Source: Alphaproteobacteria bacterium (GTDB lineage: Bacteria > Pseudomonadota > Alphaproteobacteria > Rhizobiales > Xanthobacteraceae). From it: a stretch of 64,000 nt of DNA. The DNA lies in assembly GCA_005884685.1 (NCBI GenBank), contig VBAH01000089.1, positions 1 through 64,000 on the forward strand, read 5' to 3'. The translations under genes and the position numbers were made by a program. Under the pieces are notes generated by a model. It was not told where the DNA came from and searched no databases. It saw only the letters and a program-made list of their open reading frames with translations. Below are positions 13,370-27,184 of this stretch, piece after piece (the first letter of the stretch is position 1; each line of letters starts with the position of its first letter).

Positions 13370-13446
13370 GGGCCTATACCTATAAGGCGGCCTCCCCCCA
13401 CGCAATGAGCGCTTCCCCTCACGGCCGTCACCGCAGCGCGCGGAAC

Positions 13447-13461
13447 CGGCAGTTCTTGCCG
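13447..13461. promoter_or_regulatory. dyad CGGCA-N5-TGCCG upstream of fliK, candidate FlbD enhancer
   Basis: A perfect 5+5 inverted repeat (CGGCA, GTTCT, TGCCG) lies about 100 bp upstream of the sigma-54 promoter candidate at 13560. That is where enhancers for sigma-54 activators normally sit. The same dyad occurs in the fliF leader (16526-16540). In Caulobacter, FlbD binds ftr sites both as activator and as repressor; calling this an ftr-type site is inference. Confidence 0.5.
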
Positions 13462-13559
13462 CTCGTACAGCAAGGGATGCCGGGACGAGGCACCGCATTG
13501 CGGCTGCGCGACTTCTGCTAAGATGTTGAATTGTATCCCTCAATTGATTTCCGAACCCA

Positions 13560-13575
13560 TGGCCCGGCGCTTGCA
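13560..13575 (+). promoter_or_regulatory. sigma-54 (RpoN) promoter of fliK-flgD
   Basis: TGGCCCGGCGCTTGCA matches the sigma-54 consensus TGGCACG-N4-TTGCA with a single mismatch (A to C), with the invariant GG and GC separated by exactly 10 bp. The expected start of transcription is near 13587, about 30 bases before the fliK start. FlbD, the likely activator, is encoded at 20439-21812. Confidence 0.7.
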
Positions 13576-13615
13576 GTCACCTCAATGCGCCCCTGCGCGT
13601 TGAGAGGAAAATGCC

Positions 13616-15259
13616 TTGCCCCAGGTTGCGTCCGATGCGGTGATTCAGCGGCCTGTCCGTCCCGAGGCGACCTCCGGCCGCGCGGGAGCTCCGGCTGGCG
13701 AGCCATCCGCCTCGTTCGACACGCTGCTCGATGCGCCTGCCGCACCGAAGGCAGAGCGCCCTGAGCGGGCGCCGCGCACCCGCCCGCCTGAGCGCAGCGA
13801 TCATGCGCGGGTGGCCGATGACCGCAGCGACAGCCGCAGCGATGTGGGCCGTTCGCGCATGTCCGGCGCCGGGCCTGACGCGGGGAAAAAGCCGGATCTC
13901 ACCGATAAGCCTTCCAAGGCCAGCGGGTCCCCCCCGATTCAGACGGCCAGGACCGCCGAGCAGAATTCCGCCGCTCCGGCCGACGTTCTCGCCCTTGTGA
14001 TCCAGGCGACGGCCGTGGAGGCGTCCGGAGACGGTCAGCCAGTCGTGGCCGACGCGGCCGCGGCGGATGCTGCGCCGGAGCAAACCCCGGACACCAAACG
14101 GGACAGCGACATTGTCCCTCCGGCGGATGCGACGTCCGCGGATGTTACGGCCTTGATCGTCGTAGCGGTTGCGGCGCCCGCGGCTACGCCCAATGCGCTT
14201 GTTGCGGACCTCGCGCGCGAAGCCGGGGCTGCGCCGAGCGAGATTCAAGGCTCCGCGCCCGCTGACATTCAAACGTCCGCGCCCGCCGTTCCGACCGGCG
14301 GCGCGACACCGCAGGCAGCCCAGCCCGGAATTGCGCCGGCCGACATCACCGGCCCCGACGCGACCGTGCCGGCGCCGGACTCCACCGCAGTCCCGGACGA
14401 GAGCGTAGTTCCCGCCGGCGCCAAGCAGACCGGCCCCGCGCTGATGGCTGCGGGTTCGTCGGAAAGCGGCGAGGCGAATCCCGTTCCCGCCGAGCGCAAG
14501 GCTGATGCCGGCAAAGCAAAAGCGGATCATCAGCTGGTCGCGCGCAGCTCGAATGCGCAGGCCCATGCCGATGGCTCGAAGTCCACCACAGATGCTGCAG
14601 CCGAACAGCCCTCCGAGCCCGCCGCACACCGCGCGCTTCCGCAATCAGTCGAACACGCATCTGCGAAAGCGCGCGCCGCTGTCGCCGAGGCCCATTCCGA
14701 GCTTCCCGCGAACGCTGCTGCGCCGGCTCAACTCAATGCTGCCGCGCCGAACGTGCCGTTCCTCGCCGCCGCACTCCCCGCGACGCCGCTCGCGGGCCTT
14801 TGGCCCGTCGCGGCACTCCGCATCGATCCCACTGCCGACAACGCAGTCCCGGTCGCCGGCCTCGCGGTCGAGATCGTATCGCGCGCACAGGACGGGCTGC
14901 GGCGCTTCGACATCCGTCTCGACCCGCCCGAGCTCGGGCGCATCGACGTGCGCCTCGACGTCGACAATGGCGGCAAGGTCACCTCGCGTCTCACCGTCGA
15001 GCGCGCCGAAACACTCGACCTGCTGCGCCGCGATGCGCCGCAGCTGGAGCGCGCCTTGCAGCACGCCGGCCTCAATACCGAAGGCGGGCTCGAATTCTCG
15101 CTGCGCGACCAGAATTTCGCCAACCGCGAGCAGATGCCGCGTGACGTTCCCGTCGCCCGGCTGATCGTTCCGGACGATGAGCAAATCGCCGCCGAGGCGG
15201 CCCGGCGCGGCTATGGCCGGCTGATCGGGCTCGGCGGCGGCGTGGACATCACGGTGTGA
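13616..15259 (+). CDS. fliK: flagellar hook-length control protein FliK
   Basis: 547-residue export-apparatus ruler protein that sets hook length and triggers the substrate switch. Residues 1 to about 400 are a low-complexity Ala/Pro/Asp-rich region, as usual for FliK. The C-terminal Flg_hook domain is recognisable (LRRFDIRLDPPELGRIDVRL, ETLDLLRRDAPQLERALQHA, GLNTEGGLEFSLRDQ). The start is TTG 13616 with GAGAGG about 10 bases upstream; the ATG at 13611 is out of frame and stops after 10 codons. It follows the sigma-54 promoter at 13560 and is probably co-transcribed with flgD. Confidence 0.87.
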   Translation: MPQVASDAVIQRPVRPEATSGRAGAPAGEPSASFDTLLDAPAAPKAERPERAPRTRPPERSDHARVADDRSDSRSDVGRSRMSGAGPDAGKKPDLTDKPSKASGSPPIQTARTAEQNSAAPADVLALVIQATAVEASGDGQPVVADAAAADAAPEQTPDTKRDSDIVPPADATSADVTALIVVAVAAPAATPNALVADLAREAGAAPSEIQGSAPADIQTSAPAVPTGGATPQAAQPGIAPADITGPDATVPAPDSTAVPDESVVPAGAKQTGPALMAAGSSESGEANPVPAERKADAGKAKADHQLVARSSNAQAHADGSKSTTDAAAEQPSEPAAHRALPQSVEHASAKARAAVAEAHSELPANAAAPAQLNAAAPNVPFLAAALPATPLAGLWPVAALRIDPTADNAVPVAGLAVEIVSRAQDGLRRFDIRLDPPELGRIDVRLDVDNGGKVTSRLTVERAETLDLLRRDAPQLERALQHAGLNTEGGLEFSLRDQNFANREQMPRDVPVARLIVPDDEQIAAEAARRGYGRLIGLGGGVDITV

Positions 15260-15268
15260 GGGCAGATC

Positions 15269-15973
15269 ATGGCTGACACCATCGCGACCATTGCCAACGC
15301 GGTCACCTCGGCGACCGGTACTGCGCCGAGCGCCGGCTCGGGCGCCTCCAAGACGCCGGCCGCCAGCAAGGCGGTGCTTGCAGGCAATTTCGATACGTTC
15401 CTGCAGCTGCTGACGACGCAGTTGAAGAACCAGAACCCGCTCGATCCGCTCGACACCAACCAGTTCACCCAGCAGCTGGTGCAGTTCGCCGGCGTCGAAC
15501 AGCAGATCAACATGAACCAGCAGCTCACCACGCTGGTCGCGCTGCAGAAGGCGACGCAGACCACCTCGGCGATGAGCTTCCTCGGGTCGACCGCGACCGT
15601 CGACGGCACCACCACCAAGCTGGCCAATGGCGCAGCCTCGTGGAGCTTTTCGGTCGACAAGCCCTCGACCGCGACGATCAACATCAAGAGTTCGACCGGG
15701 GCCCTCGCCTACAGCGGCAGCTACCCGCTCTCGCCCGGCGCGCAGAATTTCAACTGGGACGGCCGCGGCAACAACGGGGTGAAATGGCCGGACGGCGACT
15801 ACACCATGACGGTCACCGCCAAGGACGCGAGCGGCACCACCGTCGCGGTTTCCACCGAGATCAAGGGTACCGTCGACAGTGTCGACCTGACGCAGAACCC
15901 GCCGGTGCTCAAGATCGGCGGCCAGAGCTTCGCGCTCGACCGGATCAAGCAGGTCGTCCGCCCGGGATTCTAG
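15269..15973 (+). CDS. flgD: flagellar hook assembly (hook cap) protein FlgD
   Basis: 234-residue hook scaffold that caps the growing hook in the periplasm/outside. The N-terminal FlgD signature NFDTFLQLLTTQLKNQNPLDP is followed by LDTNQFTQQLVQFAGVEQQI. The C-terminal half has the FLG/Fn3-like beta fold (FNWDGRGNNGVKWPDGDYTM). It starts 9 bp after fliK. The coding sequence ends at TAG 15971-15973. Confidence 0.94.
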   Translation: MADTIATIANAVTSATGTAPSAGSGASKTPAASKAVLAGNFDTFLQLLTTQLKNQNPLDPLDTNQFTQQLVQFAGVEQQINMNQQLTTLVALQKATQTTSAMSFLGSTATVDGTTTKLANGAASWSFSVDKPSTATINIKSSTGALAYSGSYPLSPGAQNFNWDGRGNNGVKWPDGDYTMTVTAKDASGTTVAVSTEIKGTVDSVDLTQNPPVLKIGGQSFALDRIKQVVRPGF

Positions 15974-16125
15974 AAAATCGCCGGTTTTCCGGGCTTTTTC
16001 CGGGTTGGTGGGCGCCGCGCCACGGTAGGAATTTGTTTCCTATTTGCCCGCGTTTGCTTAGCTAAATTTTAAATCCGCCACGCTAATCTCTCCGCTGAGT
16101 ACCAGTTTGTAGTGTGAGAGTACCA

Positions 16126-16401
16126 ATGACCGAACCTCATCGCCCGAGGGTGAAGTATGTCATCGGGCCGGATGGCAGCCCCTTGACCATCGCCGATTTG
16201 CCGGCACCCGGCACGCGCCGGTGGGTCATCCGCCGCAAGGCGGAGGTGGTCGCCGCGGTTCGTGGCGGGCTTCTGTCGCTCGAGGAGGCGTGCACGCGCT
16301 ACACGCTGACGGTCGAGGAATTCCTCGCCTGGCAGTACTCGATCGACCGTCATGGTCTCGCCGGGTTGCGCACCACGCGAATCCAGCAGTACCGGCAGTA
16401 G
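16126..16401 (+). CDS. sciP: CtrA inhibitor SciP (DUF1153 family)
   Basis: 91-residue DNA-binding protein. It matches DUF1153/SciP throughout: PRVKYVIGPDGSPLTIADLP, APGTRRWVIRRKAEVVAAV, GLLSLEEACTRYTLTVEEF, LAWQYSIDRHGLAGLR. In Caulobacter SciP binds CtrA on DNA and blocks RNA polymerase recruitment at CtrA-activated promoters, including flagellar ones. ATG 16126 is used; an in-frame GTG at 16114 would add four residues. It sits between flgD and fliF and is followed by a strong terminator at 16432. Confidence 0.93.
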   Translation: MTEPHRPRVKYVIGPDGSPLTIADLPAPGTRRWVIRRKAEVVAAVRGGLLSLEEACTRYTLTVEEFLAWQYSIDRHGLAGLRTTRIQQYRQ

Positions 16402-16431
16402 GCGTCCAGTTCTTAGCGAAACGCTAACGGC

Positions 16432-16463
16432 ACGCCGGCCCTCGGGCCGGCGTCGTTGTTTTG
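16432..16463 (+). terminator. rho-independent terminator after sciP
   Basis: A perfect 10-bp stem ACGCCGGCCC / GGGCCGGCGT with a TC centre (16432-16453) is followed by CGTTGTTTTG. It separates the fliK-flgD-sciP block from the fliF operon. Confidence 0.8.
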
Positions 16464-16501
16464 CGCGCCGTGAGCGCGGTTCCGCACGCCTCGGACCGCC
16501 G

Positions 16502-16517
16502 TTAACCAGATCGAAAC
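16502..16517 (+). promoter_or_regulatory. CtrA-like box upstream of fliF
   Basis: TTAACCAGATCGAAAC: first half-site TTAACC is perfect; the second half (GAAAC) differs at two positions from the CtrA consensus TTAA-N7-TTAAC. It shares the form TTAACC-N5-nnnAC-C with the boxes upstream of flhA (24984) and fliI (32719). Confidence 0.5.
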
Positions 16518-16525
16518 CATGAACC

Positions 16526-16540
16526 CGGCAAAACTTGCCG
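16526..16540. promoter_or_regulatory. dyad CGGCA-N5-TGCCG in the fliF leader, candidate FlbD repressor site
   Basis: A second copy of the dyad found before fliK. Here the repeat extends to 9 bp on each side (16523-16531 with 16535-16543), so the RNA could also form a 9-bp hairpin, but there is no U tract. It lies just downstream of the CtrA-like box and 49 bp upstream of the fliF start. In Caulobacter FlbD represses the fliF operon from such a promoter-proximal site. Confidence 0.5.
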
Positions 16541-16588
16541 GGTGAGCGCCGCTCGGCGCTCCATGGGAAGGGCTGGGGCACGCAATCC

Positions 16589-18232
16589 GTGCAGGGTCTC
16601 GTGGAGTTCATCCGCACATTGGGCGCAGCGCGCCTCGGTGCCATGGCGGCGGTCACCACCGCGCTGGTCGGCGTGTTCGCGTTCATCATCCTGCGCGTCA
16701 CCGCGCCGCAGATGTCGCCGGTGTTCACCGACCTGACGCCGGAGGATTCGGCCGCGATCGTGAAGGACCTCGAGCGCCAGGGCATTCCCTACGAGCTCAA
16801 GAACGACGGCGGGATCGTGATGGTGCCGCGCGACAAGATGACCCGCATCCGCATGAAGCTCGCCGAGGGCGGCCTGCCCAAGGGCGGCGGCGTCGGCTAC
16901 GAGATCTTCGACAAGTCCGACACGCTCGGCGCCACCAGCTTCGTGCAGAACATCAACCATCTGCGCGCGCTCGAGGGCGAGCTCGCCCGCACCATCAAGG
17001 CGATCGACCGCGTGCAGGCCGCGCGCGTGCATCTCGTTCTGCCCGAGCGCCCGCTGTTCTCGCGCGACAAGATCGAGCCGTCGGCTTCGATCGTGTTGCG
17101 CGTGCGCGGTGCACTCGAAGCAAACCAGGTGCGCGCAATCCGCCATCTCGTCGCCTCGGCGGTGAACGGCCTGAAGCCGCAGCGCGTCTCCGTGGTGGAT
17201 GAGGCCGGCAATTTGCTCGCCGACGGCGCGGCCGGCGCCGAGGGCGCGATCGGCGGCAACGGTCAGGAGCGGCAGGCGAATTTCGAGCGGCGCCTGAAGG
17301 ACCAGATCGAATCGATCGTCTCTTCCGTGGTCGGGCCCGGCCGCGCGCGCGTGCAGCTCTCGGCCGAATTCGACTTCAACCGCATCACCGAGACGTTCGA
17401 CAAGTTCGATCCGGAGGGGCGCGTAGTCCGCTCCAGCCAGACGCGCGAGGAATCTTCTGCGAACGGCGGCCAGGAGGGCCAGGTCACCGTCAGCAACGAG
17501 CTGCCCGGCGGGCAGCAGGGGCAGCAGAACCAGCCGGCCCAGACCTCGCGCGACCAGAGCAAGAAGACCGAAGAAATCGTCAATTACGAAATCTCGCGCT
17601 CGACCAAGACCGAAATCACCGAGGGCGGGCGCGTCAAGCGCGTCTCGGCGGCGGTGCTGGTCGACGGCAGCTACGGCAAGAACGACAAAGGCGATGTCGT
17701 CTACCAGCCGCGCACCAAGGAGGAACTCGACCGCATCGCCGCGCTGGTGCGCACCGCGATCGGCTACGACCAGAAGCGTGGCGACCAGATCGAGGTCGTG
17801 AACCTGCGCTTCGCCGAAGCGCCGGCGGCCCAGATCCAGGAGCCCTCGACCGGCCTGTTGTCATTCCTGCAGTTCACCAAAGACGACATCATGCGCGCGA
17901 TCGAGCTCGGCGTGATGGCGCTGCTCGGCCTCGTGGTGGTGCTGTTCGTGGTGCGGCCGCTGGTGCGCCGCATCCTCGCGCCGGAGGAGCCGCGCGCGCT
18001 CGCGGCCGCGACAGGTGCTCTCGCGCTCGCGGGCGGGGAGGCTCACGCCGCCCTCTCCAATACGCCGCTGCCGCCGCCGGTCCCCAGCCAGGCCGCCAAG
18101 ATGATCGACATGGCGCAAGTGCAGGGTCAGGTGCACGCACAATCGATCCAGAAGGTCGGCGAGCTCGCGGAGCGCAATCCGCACGAAACCGTGGCCATTG
18201 TCCGCCAATGGCTGCAGGACGCGCCGGCGTAA
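16589..18232 (+). CDS. fliF: flagellar MS-ring protein FliF
   Basis: 547-residue inner-membrane ring protein, base of the flagellar motor. Membrane segment 1 is near residues 15-37 (AAVTTALVGVFAFIILRV) and segment 2 near 435-457 (ELGVMALLGLVVVLFVV). The YscJ/FliF ring domain includes YELKNDGGIVMVPRDKMTRI and RVQAARVHLVLPERPLFSRD. GTG 16589 is chosen because MQGLVEF is the typical N-terminus in this order; the frame is open back to a TTG inside the leader dyad. The C-terminal tail (VAIVRQWLQDAP) is the FliG-binding segment. The next gene, fliG, follows after 3 bp. Confidence 0.92.
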   Translation: MQGLVEFIRTLGAARLGAMAAVTTALVGVFAFIILRVTAPQMSPVFTDLTPEDSAAIVKDLERQGIPYELKNDGGIVMVPRDKMTRIRMKLAEGGLPKGGGVGYEIFDKSDTLGATSFVQNINHLRALEGELARTIKAIDRVQAARVHLVLPERPLFSRDKIEPSASIVLRVRGALEANQVRAIRHLVASAVNGLKPQRVSVVDEAGNLLADGAAGAEGAIGGNGQERQANFERRLKDQIESIVSSVVGPGRARVQLSAEFDFNRITETFDKFDPEGRVVRSSQTREESSANGGQEGQVTVSNELPGGQQGQQNQPAQTSRDQSKKTEEIVNYEISRSTKTEITEGGRVKRVSAAVLVDGSYGKNDKGDVVYQPRTKEELDRIAALVRTAIGYDQKRGDQIEVVNLRFAEAPAAQIQEPSTGLLSFLQFTKDDIMRAIELGVMALLGLVVVLFVVRPLVRRILAPEEPRALAAATGALALAGGEAHAALSNTPLPPPVPSQAAKMIDMAQVQGQVHAQSIQKVGELAERNPHETVAIVRQWLQDAPA

Positions 18233-20438: not shown

Positions 20439-21812
20439 ATGCGCCTCCTGATCGTCGGAACGCTGCGCGGCCAGCTCACCCTCGCCACCAAGCTCGCCAT
20501 GGACAAGGGCGCGACCGTCACGCACGCCGAAGGGGCCGAGATGGCGCTGCGCGTATTGCGCTCCGGCCGCAGCGCCGACCTGCTGATGGTCGAGGTCGCG
20601 GTCGATATCCGCGATCTCATCACGCGGATGGAGGCCGAGCACATCACCGTGCCGGTGGTCGCCTGCGGCACGTCGACCGATGCGCGCGCCGCCGTCGCGG
20701 CGATCCATGCCGGCGCGAAAGAATACATTCCACTGCCGCCGGATCCGGAACTGATCGCCGCGGTGCTCGCCGCCGTCGCCGACGACCACCGCGATTTCCT
20801 CTATCGCGACGACGCGATGGCGCATGTCGTCAAGCTCGCCCAGCAGGTCGCGCCGAGCGATGCCTCGGTCCTGATCACCGGCGAGTCCGGCACCGGCAAG
20901 GAGGTGCTCGCGCGCTTCGTGCACGCCAAATCGAACCGTGCGCGCGCGCCGTTCATCGCGGTGAATTGCGCCGCCGTGCCGGAACACCTGCTCGAATCCG
21001 AATTGTTCGGACACGAGAAAGGCTCGTTCACCGGCGCGATCGCGCGCCGCATCGGCAAGTTCGAGGAGTCGAGTGGCGGCACGCTTTTGCTCGACGAAGT
21101 CTCCGAAATGGACGTGCGGCTGCAGGCAAAACTCCTGCGCGCGATCCAGGAGCGCGTGATCGACCGCGTCGGCGGCACCAGGCCCGTGCCGGTCGACATT
21201 CGCATCATTGCGACATCGAACCGCAATCTGGCCGATGCCGTGAAGGCCGGCACGTTCCGCGAAGACCTGCTCTACCGTCTCAACGTCGTGAACCTGAAAA
21301 TCCCGCCGCTGCGCGAGCGGCCGGCCGACGTGCTCGAGCTCGCGGATCACTTCGTCAGGATGTACGCGAGGGCGAACGGCTGCGCGCGCGTGCTTTCGAC
21401 CGAAGCCCGCGCGCAGCTCATCGCCAATCGCTGGCCGGGCAACGTGCGCGAGCTGGAAAACGCGATGCACCGCGCGGTTCTGATCGCGCCGGGCGAAGCG
21501 ATCGGGCCGGAATCGATCATCGCGCCGGACGGCGCGCGGCTCGAAGAGCAGCGTGCCGCGCCTGCGGTTGCGCACGCGACGTTCGCCGCGGAAGCGGTCA
21601 CGCGCGCGCTGGTCGGCCGCACCGTGGCCGACGTCGAGCGCGATCTCATTCTGGAAACGTTGAAGCACTGCCTCGGCAACCGGACGCATGCCGCCAATAT
21701 CCTGGGCATCTCGATCCGCACCCTGCGCAACAAGCTCAACGAATATGCCGGCGACGGCATGCCGATCCCGCCGCCCGCCAACGGCGGCAGCGATTTCCGG
21801 ATGGCGGGGTAA
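20439..21812 (+). CDS. flbD: sigma-54-dependent flagellar activator FlbD
   Basis: 457-residue NtrC-family regulator. Residues 1-115 form a receiver-like domain, about 135-370 the AAA+ domain (Walker [15 protein letters not shown] loop, [10 protein letters not shown]) and 415-445 a Fis-type helix-turn-helix ([18 protein letters not shown]). FlbD activates late flagellar genes and represses fliF in Caulobacter. The receiver is degenerate: the usual phospho-acceptor Asp is Glu52 ([10 protein letters not shown]), and the acidic pocket after strand 1 is missing (LLIVGTLRG). This fits control by a partner protein (FliX in Caulobacter) rather than by a kinase. fliX itself is not in the window. Confidence 0.92.
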
Positions 21813-21818
21813 CTTACT

Positions 21819-21888
21819 CCGCTCGTCCCCGCGAAAGCGGGGACCCAGTCCTTGGCCCTGGATGCCCGCTTACGCGGGCATGAGCGGA
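21819..21888. repeat. 70-bp palindromic repeat, copy D
   Basis: Arms CCGCTCGTCCCCGCG and CGCGGGCATGAGCGG around a short centre TCCTTGGCCCTGGATG. It is the shortest of the five copies and lies between the convergent flbD and DUF1127 genes. Confidence 0.85.
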
Positions 21889-21895
21889 AGAAAGT

Positions 21896-22123
21896 TTATC
21901 TCCAGAACGGCTTCCCGCATTCGCGCGCGGCCTCGATGCGTGTGATCCCGATATCGCGCAGTTGATGATCGTCGAGTCCCGCCAGCGCATTGCGCTGGCG
22001 CCTGCGCTCGATCCAGGCCGAAAGCAGCACGCAGGCGGCCGCGACCGGGTGGATGCGTTCGCGCCTCCCCGGGCGCCGGCGCGAATAGGGTTGCGGCGGC
22101 AGATAGAGATCGATCGTCGGCAT
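21896..22123 (-). CDS. DUF1127 family protein
   Basis: 75-residue small basic protein ending in a DUF1127/YjiS-like domain: ACVLLSAWIERRRQRNALAG, LDDHQLRDIGITRIEAAREC, then GKPFW. DUF1127 proteins of alphaproteobacteria are often RNA-linked stress or phosphate-response proteins. The N-terminal 25 residues are Pro/Arg-rich. The ATG at 22123 has GAGGAGAAG upstream, part of which can pair in a leader hairpin (22134-22153). Confidence 0.88.
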   Translation of the reverse strand: MPTIDLYLPPQPYSRRRPGRRERIHPVAAACVLLSAWIERRRQRNALAGLDDHQLRDIGITRIEAARECGKPFWR

Positions 22124-22133
22124 GACTCTTCTC

Positions 22134-22153
22134 CTCTCGTTTGCTGACGAGAG
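22134..22153 (-). promoter_or_regulatory. leader hairpin of the DUF1127 gene
   Basis: The mRNA of the DUF1127 gene would contain CTCTCGT, loop CAGCAA, ACGAGAG directly before the ribosome-binding site GAGAAGAG. The 7-bp stem is perfect. It could modulate access to the ribosome-binding site or protect the 5' end (inference). Confidence 0.45.
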
Positions 22154-22271
22154 GATGGACGCAACGCCGCGCGAATGTTTCGGGCGGTGCCGAAGTGGCG
22201 CCCGCGACGCTTCGGCCGCGGCCGAACTATTGCACCGTGCCGCCAGGACATGCGCGCGCTATAATCCGCGC

Positions 22272-23003
22272 ATGAGCGAAGTCCTCGACATCGCCGCCGT
22301 CGCCGCGCTGGTCGGCGACCCGGCGCGCGCCAACATGCTGTGCGCCTTGCTCGACGGCCGCGCGCTGACCGCGAGCGAGCTTGCCTATGCGGCGCACATC
22401 ACGCCGCAGACCGCGAGCGGCCACCTCGGCAAGCTCGCGCGGGCCAACCTGATCGTCCCGGCGCAGCAGGGCCGCCACCGTTATTTCAAGCTCGCCGGCC
22501 GCCATGTGGCGGCGATGATCGAGAGCATTTCGGCCGTTACCGCGATTGCGCCGCCGCGGCTCAAGCCGATCCGCATCGACGATGCGATGCGCCAGGCGCG
22601 CATGTGCTACGACCATGTGGCGGGGCGGCTCGGCGTCACGCTCGCGGATGCGTTGCGCGAGCACGGGCATGTCGAATTCGCCGACGATGGCGGCGTGGTC
22701 ACCCCGTCCGGCGAGGCGTTCCTGGCGAAGTTCGGCATCGATCTCTCGGCGTCGCGCCAGAGCCGCCGCGTGTTCTGCCGCCCCTGCATCGACTGGAGCG
22801 AGCGACGCGCGCATCTCGCCGGCGCGGTCGGCGCCGCGCTGGCGACCCGCCTGATGGAATTGCGCTGGATCGCGCGCAAGCGCGATACGCGCGCGCTGAC
22901 CATTACGCCGATCGGCTGGAGCAACATCGAGCGCACCTTCGGCTGCTCGCTGCACGATCACACGGTGCATGCGCGGCCCGCGCTGCGGGTCGTGGCGGGT
23001 TAG
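22272..23003 (+). CDS. ArsR-type winged-helix regulator
   Basis: 243 residues. The N-terminal winged helix (residues about 10-90) reads VAALVGDPARANMLCALLDG, RALTASELAYAAHITPQTAS, GHLGKLARANLIVPAQQGRH, RYFKLA. The C-terminal 140 residues are an extra domain with two cysteines in FCRPCIDWSERRAHLAGAVG and one in FGCSLHDH, which may bind metal or another ligand. It is longer than classical ArsR/SmtB (about 100 residues) and belongs to the extended group. It stands alone, divergent from the DUF1127 gene. Confidence 0.82.
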   Translation: MSEVLDIAAVAALVGDPARANMLCALLDGRALTASELAYAAHITPQTASGHLGKLARANLIVPAQQGRHRYFKLAGRHVAAMIESISAVTAIAPPRLKPIRIDDAMRQARMCYDHVAGRLGVTLADALREHGHVEFADDGGVVTPSGEAFLAKFGIDLSASRQSRRVFCRPCIDWSERRAHLAGAVGAALATRLMELRWIARKRDTRALTITPIGWSNIERTFGCSLHDHTVHARPALRVVAG

Positions 23004-23006
23004 TGG

Positions 23007-23264
23007 TTACGCCGGCTTGATGACCGCGCCGAGAAGCGCAATCCCTGCGGCAAGTAATACGCCAAGATGCACGGTTAGCCTGAGCCCCAAATTGTCGAGC
23101 TTCGCGTGGACATGGGTGAGCGCGGTCTGCAGATCAGTTTTGCTTACAAGTTCGGCCATAATGAATTGCCTAGCCGCCTCGGCCTGTGCTTCGGCCTGTT
23201 CTTGTACCACTCCGCGCTCCCGGAGATAACGAGCATTAGGGAGTGTATCGAATGCAAAAGTCAT
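23007..23264 (-). CDS. small coiled-coil protein with C-terminal membrane segment (DUF1640-like)
   Basis: 85 residues: MTFAFDTLPNARYLRERGV, then an Ala/Gln/Glu-rich helix (QEQAEAQAEAARQFIM), a short coiled coil (LVSKTDLQTALTHVHAKLDN) and a C-terminal membrane helix (LGVLLAAGIALLGAVI). This arrangement resembles the DUF1640/CCDC90-type proteins. The ATG at 23264 gives the best match. Its first codons overlap, in antisense, the start of the small ORF at 23252-23464. Function unknown. Confidence 0.68.
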   Translation of the reverse strand: MTFAFDTLPNARYLRERGVVQEQAEAQAEAARQFIMAELVSKTDLQTALTHVHAKLDNLGLRLTVHLGVLLAAGIALLGAVIKPA

Positions 23265-23464
23265 GGGACGTTGCGAAACGAGTAATGCTCGCTCTATGTG
23301 GGGCTGCATTCGCAGCGCCTGTAGTGATCTGCTCATACCTCGCTGCTGCGTATCCCAACATTATCTATTTGCTGCTGTGGGTCGTCATCGTGCCGCCGTC
23401 TCTGATCGCATCTCTAGGAATGCTCCGGATCGCGATTCGTTGGAAAGATCGGGCCAAGCTGTGA
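23252..23464 (+). CDS. small two-helix membrane protein
   Basis: 70 residues starting MQKSWDVAKRVMLALCGAAF, with two hydrophobic segments (about residues 11-30 and 36-60: YLLLWVVIVPPSLIASLGML) and a positive C-terminus (RWKDRAKL). AGGGAG lies 8-9 bases before the ATG. Base composition is visibly lower in GC than the neighbours, which hints at recent acquisition. I do not recognise a family. It may be spurious, since its start overlaps the opposite gene by 13 bp. Confidence 0.45.
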   Translation: MQKSWDVAKRVMLALCGAAFAAPVVICSYLAAAYPNIIYLLLWVVIVPPSLIASLGMLRIAIRWKDRAKL

Positions 23465-23476
23465 AAGGACTGCGTT

Positions 23477-23992
23477 CTAGAGCCTCGCGATCACGCGGTC
23501 CGCAATCTCTTCCGGCGCCGCATCGATCGACACCGCGATTGCGCCCTCGTCAACACCCGGCTCCTCCAGCGCGGCGAACTGGCTGCGCAACAGCTCGGGC
23601 GGCATGAAGTGGCCCTGGCGTGCCTTGAGCCGCGCCGCGATCAGATCGAAATCGCCCTTCAGGTACACAAGCCGCACGTCCTTGCGCTGGCCGTCGGTCA
23701 CGAGGTCGCGGTAGCGCCGCTTCAAGGCCGAGCAGGTGACGACGCAGCTCGTCCCCGCCGCGCGATGCTGCGCGATCCACGCGGCGATCGCCTGCAGCCA
23801 GGGCCAGCGATCCTCGTCGGTGAGCGGCTCGCCCCGGCTCATCTTCGCGATGTTCGCCCCCGGGTGAAAGCTGTCGGCATCGCGGAACGGGCAATCCAGC
23901 TGCGCGGCGATCAACCGGCCGACCGTCGATTTGCCGGCGCCCGACACCCCCATCACCACGATGGCGGCAACGCCCGGAAGGAATTGCGCCAT
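23477..23992 (-). CDS. gntK: gluconokinase GntK
   Basis: 171-residue kinase that phosphorylates gluconate to 6-phosphogluconate. The P-loop GVSGAGKSTVGRLIAAQL is near residue 15, followed by the family motifs RDADSFHPGANIAKMSRG, PLTDEDRWPWL, CSALKRRYRD and GHFMPPELLRSQFAALE. It overlaps the end of gnd by 1 bp (TGATG), so it is co-translated with the enzyme that consumes its product. Confidence 0.94.
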   Translation of the reverse strand: MAQFLPGVAAIVVMGVSGAGKSTVGRLIAAQLDCPFRDADSFHPGANIAKMSRGEPLTDEDRWPWLQAIAAWIAQHRAAGTSCVVTCSALKRRYRDLVTDGQRKDVRLVYLKGDFDLIAARLKARQGHFMPPELLRSQFAALEEPGVDEGAIAVSIDAAPEEIADRVIARL

Positions 23993-24969
23993 CAGGATTT
24001 CGGCTCCACATGGCCGCCGAAGCCCTTGCGCATCGCGGAGAGGATCTTCTCGGCGAAGGTGTGCTGCTGGCGCGAGCGGAAGCGCGTGTAGAGCGCAGCC
24101 GAGAGCACGTCCGCCGGCACCGCCTCCTCGACCGCCGCCTGAATGGTCCAGCGGCCTTCGCCTGAATCCGCAACATGCCCAGAGTAAGACGCGAGATCGC
24201 CCTCCTCGGCGAGCGCCGCGGCGGTGAGATCGAGCAGCCATGACGTGATCACGCTGCCGCGCCGCCAGGTTTCGGCGATGTCGGCGAGGTTGAGATCGAG
24301 GCGGTGTTCCTCCGGAAGCGACTCATCGCCCGCGTGCCGCAGAATATCGAACCCTTCCGCGTAAGCCTGCATCAGGCCGTATTCGATGCCGTTGTGGATC
24401 ATCTTGACGAAATGCCCCGCCCCGTTCGGCCCGGCGTGGAGATAACCTTGCGCGGGCCGCGGATCGCGCCCCTCGCGGATCGGCGTCGTGGCGATCTCGC
24501 CCGCTCCCGGGGCGAGCGCCCGAAAGACCGGATCGAGCCGCTCCACCACATTCCTTTCGCCGCCGATCATTAGGCAATAGCCGCGCTCGAGCCCCCAGAC
24601 GCCGCCGCTCGTTCCAACGTCGAGATAGTGGATGCCGCGCGCCCGCAGCGCCTTCGCGCGTGCGATGTCGTCCTTCCAGAACGAGTTGCCGCCATCGATG
24701 ATCGTATCGCCCTCAGCCATCAGGGTGGCCAGTTCCTCGACCGCCTGCGCGGTCGCCTCGCCGGCCGGCACCATCAGCCAGACCACGCGCGGGGGCTTCA
24801 GCCGCTTCACGAGGTCCTGCAGCGCGGCGGACGACATCGCCCCCTCCCGCCCAAGCGCAAGGCTCGCATCGAGATTGGCGTCGAACACCACGCAGTCGTG
24901 CCCATGGCGCATCAGGCGGCGCGCGATATTCGCGCCCATCCGCCCCAGACCGACGATGCCGATTTGCAT
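23992..24969 (-). CDS. gnd: 6-phosphogluconate dehydrogenase, decarboxylating (short form)
   Basis: 325-residue enzyme that oxidises 6-phosphogluconate to ribulose 5-phosphate with CO2 release. The Rossmann motif [20 protein letters not shown] is at the N-terminus. Catalytic segments are [32 protein letters not shown] and [20 protein letters not shown]. The length of about 325 marks the GndA/YqeC-type short form, often NAD-linked. ATG 24969 is chosen because the Rossmann strand starts there. It forms a gluconate-use pair with gntK. Confidence 0.94.
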
Positions 24970-24983
24970 GCAGGAACCCGCAG

Positions 24984-24999
24984 TTAACCGATTGATAAC
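24984..24999 (+). promoter_or_regulatory. CtrA-like box upstream of flhA
   Basis: TTAACCGATTGATAAC matches TTAA-N7-TTAAC with one mismatch. It lies about 75 bp upstream of the flhA ATG in the gap divergent from gnd. A similar box precedes fliI (32719) and a weaker one precedes fliF (16502). Confidence 0.6.
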
Positions 25000-25072
25000 C
25001 ATACACTCGGCAATAATTGCCTAACAGGGGACGTGCGCCCGGGTGGGTGCGCGGCTGCGGGCAATTGCAAGC

Positions 25073-27184
25073 ATGACCGACGTCACGGCGGCACAAACGG
25101 GCGGCTTCTCGCTCCCCGGCATCGGCAGCTTCGCCGACCTTGCCAAGCGTGGCGATCTCGCGCTCGCGATCGGGGTGCTGACCATCCTGATGGTCCTCAT
25201 CCTCCCCCTCCCCGCGATCCTGCTCGATTTCGCGCTTGCGATCTCCATCATCCTCTCGGTGCTGATCCTGATGACGGCGCTGTTCATCCACACGCCGCTC
25301 GAATTCTCCTCGTTCCCCACCATCCTTCTCATCTCGACGATGCTGCGGCTCGCGCTCAATCTCGCATCGACGCGGCTGATCCTCGCGCGCGGCCATGAGG
25401 GCACGGCCGCCGCCGGCCACGTCATCGAGGCGTTCGGCAATTTCGTGATGAGCGGCAACTTCGTGATCGGCATCATCGTGTTCACGATCCTGGTGATCGT
25501 GAACTTCGTCGTGATCACCAAGGGTTCCGGCCGCATCGCCGAGGTCGCGGCACGATTCAATCTCGATGCCATGCCGGGCAAGCAGATGGCGATCGACGCC
25601 GACCTCTCGGCCGGCCTGATCAACGAGGCCGACGCGCGCACGCGGCGCAAGCACCTGGAGGACGAAAGCGCCTTTTTCGGCGCGATGGACGGCGCCTCGA
25701 AATTCGTGCGCGGCGATGCGATCGCCGGTCTTCTGGTCGTGTTCATCAACGTGATCGGCGGCATGATCATCGGCATCGCCCAGCAGGGCCTGCCGTTCGC
25801 CGAAGCCGCGCGCACCTACACGCTGCTCACGGTCGGCGACGGCCTCGTCACGCAGATCCCCGCGCTGATCGTCTCGACCGCGGCCGGCCTGCTCGTCTCG
25901 AAGGCGGGCGTCGGCGGCGGCGTCGACAAGGCACTGCTGCGCCAGCTCTCCGGTTACCCGAAAGCGCTCGGAATGTCGGGCGCCGTGATGGTCGTGATGT
26001 CGCTTTTGCCCGGCATTCCGATGCTGCCGTTCATGGCGCTCGGCGCCGGCGCCGGCCTGCTCGCTTATGTGATCGAGAAGCGGACCGCGGCCGCGGCCGC
26101 AACCGAGGCCGCGCAGGCGACAACTGCCGCCAAGACCGAGCCTTCGGAGGAGCCGATCTCGGCCGCGCTCAAGATCGACGATCTCAAGATCGAGCTCGGC
26201 TATGCGCTGCTGCCGCTGGTCAACGCGCCGGACGGCTCGGATCGCCTCACCGAGCAGATCAAGGCGCTGCGCCGCTCGCTTGCTGGCGAAATGGGCTTCG
26301 TGATGCCGGCCGTGCGCATCCTCGACAACGTGCAGCTCGAGGCCAACGCCTACATCATCAAGCTCAAGGAGGTCGACGCCGGCCAGGGCCGCGTCTGGCC
26401 GAACCAGCACATGGTGATGGACCCGACCGGCGCCCAGGTGAACCTGCCCGGCCTGCACACGACCGAACCGACCTTCGGCCTGCCCGCCACCTGGATCGAC
26501 GCCGCGCTGAAGGAAGAGGCCGCGATCAAGGGCTACACCGTGGTCGATGCCGCGACCGTGCTGGCGACGCATCTGACCGAAGTGCTCAAGACCAATATGG
26601 CGGAGTTGCTCTCCTACGCGGAGGTGCAGAAGCTCCTGAAGGACCTGTCGAAGGAGCAAAGCGAACTGGTGAAGGACATCGTACCGGCGCAGATCACCGT
26701 TTCGGGCATCCAGCGCGTGCTGCAGCTCCTGCTCGCCGAACGCATCTCGATCCGCGATCTTCCGACCATCCTGGAAGGCATCGCCGACGCGCTCGCGTTC
26801 ACGCGCAATCCGACCTACCTGGTCGAGCATGTGCGCACGCGGCTCGCGCGCCAGATCTGCGCGCAGCACACGTCACCCGGCGGCTACCTGCCGCTGATCG
26901 CGCTCTCGGCCAAGTGGGAGCAGGCCTTTGCCGAGTCGATCGTCGGACAGGGCGAGGACAAGAATCTCGCGATGGCGCCCTCGAAGCTATCGGAGTTCAT
27001 CACCCTGGTGCGGGAGCGCTTCGAGGACGCGGCCCGCGAGGGCGAGGCGCCAGTGCTGGTCACCTCCCCCGGGGTGCGGCCGTTTGTCCGCTCCATCGTG
27101 GAGCGTTTTCGTACCCAGACCACCGTGCTGTCGCAGTCGGAGATCCATCCGCGAGTGCGGCTGAAGACTGTGGGCGGGATTTGA
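25073..27184 (+). CDS. flhA: flagellar export gate protein FlhA
   Basis: 703-residue inner-membrane component of the flagellar type III export gate. Eight membrane segments lie in the first 330 residues (GVLTILMVLILPLPAILLDF; LAISIILSVLILMTALF). The FHIPEP signature region reads EFSSFPTILLISTMLRLALN, LASTRLIL. The cytoplasmic domain runs from about 350 to the end. The ATG at 25073 is used; an upstream in-frame start would add ten residues without family match. Confidence 0.94.
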   Translation: MTDVTAAQTGGFSLPGIGSFADLAKRGDLALAIGVLTILMVLILPLPAILLDFALAISIILSVLILMTALFIHTPLEFSSFPTILLISTMLRLALNLASTRLILARGHEGTAAAGHVIEAFGNFVMSGNFVIGIIVFTILVIVNFVVITKGSGRIAEVAARFNLDAMPGKQMAIDADLSAGLINEADARTRRKHLEDESAFFGAMDGASKFVRGDAIAGLLVVFINVIGGMIIGIAQQGLPFAEAARTYTLLTVGDGLVTQIPALIVSTAAGLLVSKAGVGGGVDKALLRQLSGYPKALGMSGAVMVVMSLLPGIPMLPFMALGAGAGLLAYVIEKRTAAAAATEAAQATTAAKTEPSEEPISAALKIDDLKIELGYALLPLVNAPDGSDRLTEQIKALRRSLAGEMGFVMPAVRILDNVQLEANAYIIKLKEVDAGQGRVWPNQHMVMDPTGAQVNLPGLHTTEPTFGLPATWIDAALKEEAAIKGYTVVDAATVLATHLTEVLKTNMAELLSYAEVQKLLKDLSKEQSELVKDIVPAQITVSGIQRVLQLLLAERISIRDLPTILEGIADALAFTRNPTYLVEHVRTRLARQICAQHTSPGGYLPLIALSAKWEQAFAESIVGQGEDKNLAMAPSKLSEFITLVRERFEDAAREGEAPVLVTSPGVRPFVRSIVERFRTQTTVLSQSEIHPRVRLKTVGGI

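Follow-up and report, generated by a model that had tools for sequence, protein, structure and literature searches.

The stretch of DNA analysed here (the window) comprises positions 1 to 64,000 of contig VBAH01000089.1 from an alphaproteobacterium of the family Xanthobacteraceae (assembly GCA_005884685.1), and it carries a flagellar region in which Pfam identifies fliK, flgD, a DUF1153 gene, fliF, fliG, flbD and flhA. The DUF1153 protein we take to be SciP, the inhibitor of CtrA. Two exact copies of the dyad CGGCA-N5-TGCCG lie in this region, one in front of fliK at 13447-13461 and the other in the fliF leader at 16526-16540, and there is no other exact copy in the window. Judged by their sequence, positions and conservation, both dyads are very probably operators of FlbD, the NtrC-type regulator that is encoded at the end of the fliF run, and counterparts of the ftr sites of Caulobacter. 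FlbD is likely to turn one of the two genes on and the other off.

Layout of the fliK and fliF promoters

A sequence-only reading of the window had drawn attention to the two dyads, had placed one of them about 100 bp upstream of the sigma-54 promoter of fliK and the other in the fliF leader, immediately behind a CtrA-like box, and had noted flbD at the end of the fliF run; all of these placements were borne out. The candidate operator of the fliK promoter (ftr-like; no strand assigned) occupies 13444..13464 around its core dyad, and the sigma-54 promoter (-24/-12) of fliK, TGGCCCG-GCGC-TTGCA, lies at 13560..13575 on the plus strand, with similar boxes in relatives. From the start of the dyad to the start of this box is 113 bp, with a gap of 98 bp, and the box is the only one of three matches to the sigma-54 pattern in the window that falls within the flagellar part (13-27 kb). 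The fliK gene itself follows at 13616..15259 (+; Pfam Flg_hook, 1.7e-18).

Further downstream, sciP (16126..16402, +; PF06627, 4.1e-41) is followed by a terminator-like hairpin (16432..16453, +) that is separate from the fliF dyad. The CtrA-like box of the fliF promoter, GTTAACC-N5-GAAACCAT, stands at 16501..16520 (+), and after a further 2 bp comes the 21-bp candidate operator of the fliF leader (ftr4-like; 16523..16543, no strand assigned), with its core dyad at 16526-16540 and a score of 26.7 under the matrix described below; similar boxes precede the dyad in relatives. The fliF gene, whose start codon is approximate, extends over 16589..18232 (+; Pfam YscJ_FliF, 3.6e-64, in a frame open from 16535). 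At 20439..21812 (+) lies flbD, which by Pfam encodes a sigma-54 activator with receiver-like, AAA+ sigma-54 and Fis-type helix-turn-helix domains, the receiver match being weak (E 2.6e-4, under the Pfam cut-off).

Conservation of the candidate operator in fliF leaders

An orthologue of FlbD, defined by a cut of more than about 580 bits, is present in 76 of the 121 genomes searched, the window's own included. For the 75 others we compared flbD together with up to about 12 kb upstream. The genes fliK, flgD, sciP, fliF, fliG and flbD are all present in 53 of these loci, in the same order and on the same strand in 52; many of the remaining loci are cut by contig ends, and others lack fliK and flgD nearby. 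At the level of the order, the fliF leaders number 72, i.e., the window and 71 relatives (L049 was left out, its fliF start not being reached), and many of them share the layout GTTAACC-N5-GaAACCAT-N6-GGCAAWWYTTGCC.

A symmetric matrix of 21 bp was built from these leaders. Its letters GG, A, T and CC are nearly invariant, the centre is rich in A/T and the outer positions are C/G, so that the operator can be summarized as GG.A and T.CC flanking an A/T-rich middle. With the matrix cross-validated between families, the site was found in 72 of 72 leaders: a matrix from the window's own family gave all 26 leaders of other families a higher score than any of 104 fliF coding tiles, and one from the other families did the same for all 46 same-family leaders against 184 such tiles. 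In a simple box search, the CtrA-like box was seen solely on the upstream side of the dyad in 64 leaders, solely downstream in three, on both sides in one and on neither side in four, i.e., upstream of the site in 65 of 72.

The exact letters CGGCA-N5-TGCCG occur in just eight of the 72 sites, and the true operator is looser than this string. The string itself is thus not the operator. The sequence-only reading had proposed to count it genome-wide, with a high frequency at non-flagellar sites as refutation; taken literally, the bare dyad does behave in this way, with 50 copies across the 5.39-Mb genome against 48 for a reversed control. Being no commoner than chance, it is uninformative as a string and a poor description of the site; the significance of the two dyads lies in their conservation at the same positions in other genomes. 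Within the window, 17 places match the dyad with at most one mismatch (shuffle mean 9.1; none of 100 shuffles reached 17). Elsewhere in the genome, one other copy, CGGCAAAACTTGCCG, has the same letters as the core at fliF and falls within a TauE/SafE-like frame beside ruvC (both names assigned by eye).

fliK promoters as a held-out test

The fliK promoters provide a test on sequences that did not enter the matrix, which was here trained on fliF leaders only. There are 51 loci with mnmA and fliK, the window included, of which five were left out for want of a usable sigma-54 box or gene order. Among the 46 promoters with a recognisable sigma-54 box, 40 carry a site above the threshold of 6.3 (99% mononucleotide shuffle). 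The alignment of orthologous promoters, which the sequence-only reading had suggested as a check, thus came out in favour of the sites at both genes. The fliK sites lie at -67 to -121 from the sigma-54 box with a mode of -108, and in the relatives the distances fall mostly at 87-91, 96-103 and 107-113. These values hint at helical phasing (Rayleigh p about 0.005-0.007 for 21 unique distances and periods of 10.5-11, among related sequences and with several periods tried); the distances within the window's own genome (113, 101, 89 and 87) are not clearly in phase.

A second, weaker dyad at fliK, 21 bp downstream of the first (13468-13482), scores -18.9 in the window and is not claimed as a site, and similar second fliK sites are seen in several relatives by a simple consensus score. 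In the sciP leader, a weaker palindrome, GGTAGGAATTTGTTTCCTATT, at 16024-16044 is identical in three members of the genus (the window, L034 and L035). Six of 62 sciP leaders exceed the threshold, and the site at 16024 is not claimed; sciP might also be under FlbD.

Further candidate sites in the same genome

The two sites from which the analysis started do not make up the full set. Four more candidates were found, one of them, at flhA, within the window and the others, at flgE, flgI/fliX and flgF/fliL, elsewhere in the genome. In the flhA promoter a CtrA-like box, GTTAACC-N5-ATAACCAT (24983..25002, +), is directly followed by the third candidate FlbD operator of the window (25005..25025, no strand assigned; matrix score 22.1), and flhA, with an approximate start codon, follows at 25043..27184 (+; Pfam FHIPEP, 2.6e-258). 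Of 23 other flhA leaders (22 relatives, in which flhA lies within about 500 bp of flbD, and Caulobacter vibrioides), seven are above threshold, six of these with the layout of the window.

At flgE the dyad stands at -89 from TGGCACG-CTGC-TTGC. In the flgI/fliX intergenic region a CtrA box, TTAACTCCGCATTAA, is found toward fliX, and toward flgI the dyad lies at -87 from a sigma-54-like box whose -12 element is imperfect; in the flgF/fliL region the dyad is at -101 from TGGCACG-GCGG-CTGCA toward flgF, with a TTAACC half-site toward fliL. In both divergent pairs the dyad is thus situated between a sigma-54-like box and a CtrA-type sequence, so that a single site could do both jobs. A strict sigma-54 scan gave 16 matches in the genome, with a clear dyad at fliK alone (consensus score 14 of 15; all others at most 12); flgE, flgF and flgI, whose -12 boxes are imperfect, were found from the side of the dyad. 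FliX, the partner of FlbD, is also encoded in this genome (PF10768, 1.6e-42; contig C40:4676-5110). The survey covers part of the flagellar promoters, the flagellin promoter lying beyond the start of contig C40.

A refined pattern, drawn from the fliF and fliK sites, gave 16 rows in the genome and 13 rows for the control, and is informative through location only. The 16 rows correspond to 14 distinct places, one palindrome being listed twice and one region lying on two overlapping contig ends. Five places are at flagellar promoters (fliK, fliF, flgE, flgI/fliX and flgF/fliL) and nine within long open frames, which are frequent by chance in such GC-rich DNA. Because of the way in which the pattern was drawn, the unbiased count is three flagellar places out of 12.

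Two further observations concern the surroundings of these sites. The stretch from flbD to flhA (21813-25042) holds at least two non-flagellar frames, one for an ArsR-type helix-turn-helix protein (22122-23003) and one, on the minus strand, for a 6PGDH-like protein (23992-25002). Contigs C40 (1-10478) and C90 (5000-9043) both have the flgF/fliL promoter at their ends, with several base differences, so that the assembly might be a mixture of strains or hold a duplication.

Association with FlbD across the class

Beyond the order, 40 class-level leaders from FlbD-bearing genomes were considered; L185, whose leader is too short, was left out, and two of the remaining 39 come from the window's own order. 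The fliF leader exceeds the 99% shuffle threshold in 35 of the 39. Where fliF is present and FlbD was undetected, one of 15 leaders does so (Mann-Whitney p = 1e-7 versus the FlbD-bearing genomes). These 15 were taken from 22 class genomes with FliF and no FlbD match: G184, G189, G270, G290 and G343 were left out because their FliF is as close as in FlbD-bearing genomes and assembly gaps are suspected, and G319 and G370, which have weak matches, were left out as well. The fliF start was extrapolated in several of the FlbD-negative leaders.

Within the order, none of the 16 leaders that belong to FliF of another type, in genomes with no FlbD orthologue, has the site. Of the 45 relatives lacking an FlbD orthologue, 34 were searched for fliF for this comparison, which gave 19 matches. 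Three of these, L237, L238 and L254, have an FlbD-type FliF and the dyad; two of the three genomes showed just the C-terminal part of flbD at the locus, and the contig of one breaks off close to the expected start of flbD, so that they were not counted as FlbD-negative. In the two relatives with the loci L256 and L258, the C-terminal part of flbD alone was found and the fliF dyad is retained, one of them having the first 113 residues of fliF only; these flagellar loci are apparently in decay.

The position of the dyad relative to the CtrA-like box differs at the level of the class. Among the 39 leaders the box lies downstream of the dyad only in 15, upstream only in ten, on both sides in five and on neither in five, and four leaders have no dyad. 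This suggests, from position, two ways of repressing fliF. We tentatively propose, at somewhat less than even confidence, that FlbD-type flagella throughout the Alphaproteobacteria are marked by a single, nearly invariant FlbD operator, with its place relative to the CtrA box flipped between lineages: the dyad follows the box in this order and in Caulobacter, and in a set of other lineages it abuts the box upstream. If so, the early genes would have remained repressed under a changed mechanism (polymerase blocked in one arrangement, CtrA displaced in the other), and a lone dyad shared by divergent promoters would act on them in opposite senses, activating one and silencing its neighbour.

The probable Caulobacter counterpart

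Caulobacter genomes were reached through a 21-base primer stretch given in an excerpt of PMC5472812, which matched eight records. This stretch also matched L207, a record titled as an uncultured Sphingomonadales metagenome-assembled genome, which is perhaps a contaminant or a misnamed bin. In C. vibrioides DSM 9893, C. vibrioides OR37 and Caulobacter sp. BP25, ACTGGGTAAATCCTGCCTACC stands in the fliF leader, 4 bp after GTTTACC, and scores 20.2 with a matrix trained without any Caulobacter. By its place and likeness this site is presumably ftr4; FlbD, as described in a review (PMC3930126), binds ftr4 upstream of fliF and represses, and binds the ftr sites of later genes and activates. Over 449 residues, the window's FlbD shares 67% identity with its positional counterpart in C. 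vibrioides, and a stretch of 24 residues in the helix-turn-helix of the DNA-binding domain is identical in the two. One flagellin gene of C. vibrioides, identified by eye from its beginning, carries a site whose 21-mer starts at -92 relative to the sigma-54 box and scores 17.0. At fliK of C. vibrioides a better site (15.1) than the one near the promoter lies some 270 bp upstream, and at other genes with a sigma-54 box a first-pass scan gave weak sites or none.

Interpretation

The proposal that FlbD acts through these dyads, as an activator at one and a repressor at the other, gains support from their conservation, from their linkage with FlbD and from the match in the Caulobacter fliF leader. 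Several observations weigh against it. The dyad is confounded with flagellar type, because the genomes in which FlbD was undetected also have a divergent FliF (about 29-42% identity). The seed consensus of the matrix was picked after all leaders had been viewed, a mild leak in the cross-validation, and the refined pattern is not clearly commoner genome-wide than its control. Some promoters expected to carry a site have none above threshold (six of the 46 at fliK, four of the 39 class-level fliF leaders), and just seven of the 23 flhA leaders pass, the Caulobacter one being below. Among individual sites, that of the window's own fliK scores 10.9 with the fliF-only matrix, the flgE site, at 6.1, is just under threshold, and in C. 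vibrioides the site found 94 bp ahead of the fliK sigma-54 box has a score of -6.0. The leader L189, where FlbD was undetected, scores 10.2; its genome, G241, was used as a negative and has a FliF as close as in FlbD-bearing genomes, the same doubtful kind as the five excluded.

Some room, if not much, is left for the dyads to be operators of another regulator that occurs together with flagella of this type, either a different NtrC-type activator or a repressor of unrelated kind. The dyad and FlbD both go with the same type, and other NtrC-type proteins are encoded in FlbD-bearing genomes too. Against such a regulator stand the sites at both sigma-54 and CtrA-type promoters, as FlbD requires, the identical helix-turn-helix stretch of FlbD in Caulobacter and, in that organism, a matching site in the leader of fliF, upstream of which FlbD is described to bind; we consider it improbable.

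Still less probable, to the point of being very unlikely, is that the fliF dyad acts as an RNA hairpin, be it the sciP terminator or a structure in the fliF mRNA leader. Its arms in the window are perfectly complementary over 8 bp, but the search for terminator-like hairpins called the separate one behind sciP (one found, shuffle mean 0.5) and not the dyad. Among 56 distinct sites all eight arm pairs are kept in three and the inner five in 11, the letters GG.A and T.CC being fixed without covariation; the dyad does not show what marks an intrinsic terminator, a stem kept up by pairing and a T run. A site of the same kind is also present at fliK, some 100 bp ahead of the sigma-54 box. That the dyads are chance palindromes of a GC-rich genome, as the near equality of bare-dyad and control counts might suggest, is scarcely credible given the conservation of position across families in held-out tests.

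Under the FlbD reading, CtrA would drive fliF, flhA, fliX and fliL early in assembly, and upon completion of the basal body and export gate FliX would license FlbD. The latter would then bind about 90-110 bp upstream of the sigma-54 promoters of fliK, flgE, flgF and flgI to activate them; at the early operons it would sit beside the CtrA box and core promoter and silence transcription. A site known from one model organism becomes a searchable 21-bp operator with held-out tests, by which FlbD regulons should be predictable in other Alphaproteobacteria that swim with this flagellum. Likely added targets are flhA, flgE and the divergent flgI/fliX and flgF/fliL pairs, and the switch between activation and repression becomes directly testable outside Caulobacter.

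Comparison with known systems

The dyads extend the known ftr/FlbD system and are not of a new kind. In the literature searched, at the level of titles and abstract openings, no FlbD operator outside Caulobacter was found. Going by its title alone, a paper by Dardis et al. (2021, J Bacteriol 203:e00403-20) reportedly deals with the control of flagellar synthesis by FlbD-FliX in Bradyrhizobium diazoefficiens, which would be the same regulatory pair in a rhizobium.

The closest likeness is to Caulobacter crescentus (vibrioides), with which the window shares the site beside a CtrA-type box in the fliF leader, an ftr-like site upstream of a sigma-54 flagellar promoter (flagellin in C. vibrioides; fliK and others here) and the gene order fliK, flgD, sciP, fliF, fliG, flbD. 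FliX, encoded elsewhere in this genome, is also known in Caulobacter from PMC3096577, which reports that loss of fliX raises the activity of the fliF promoter and lowers that of the fliK promoter, a result in line with repression of class II and activation of class III genes by FlbD. The two differ in that the fliF site of the window, unlike that of Caulobacter, is a perfect 21-bp palindrome, that flhA has a site here and none in C. vibrioides DSM 9893, and that the fliK site near the sigma-54 box is weak in C. vibrioides.

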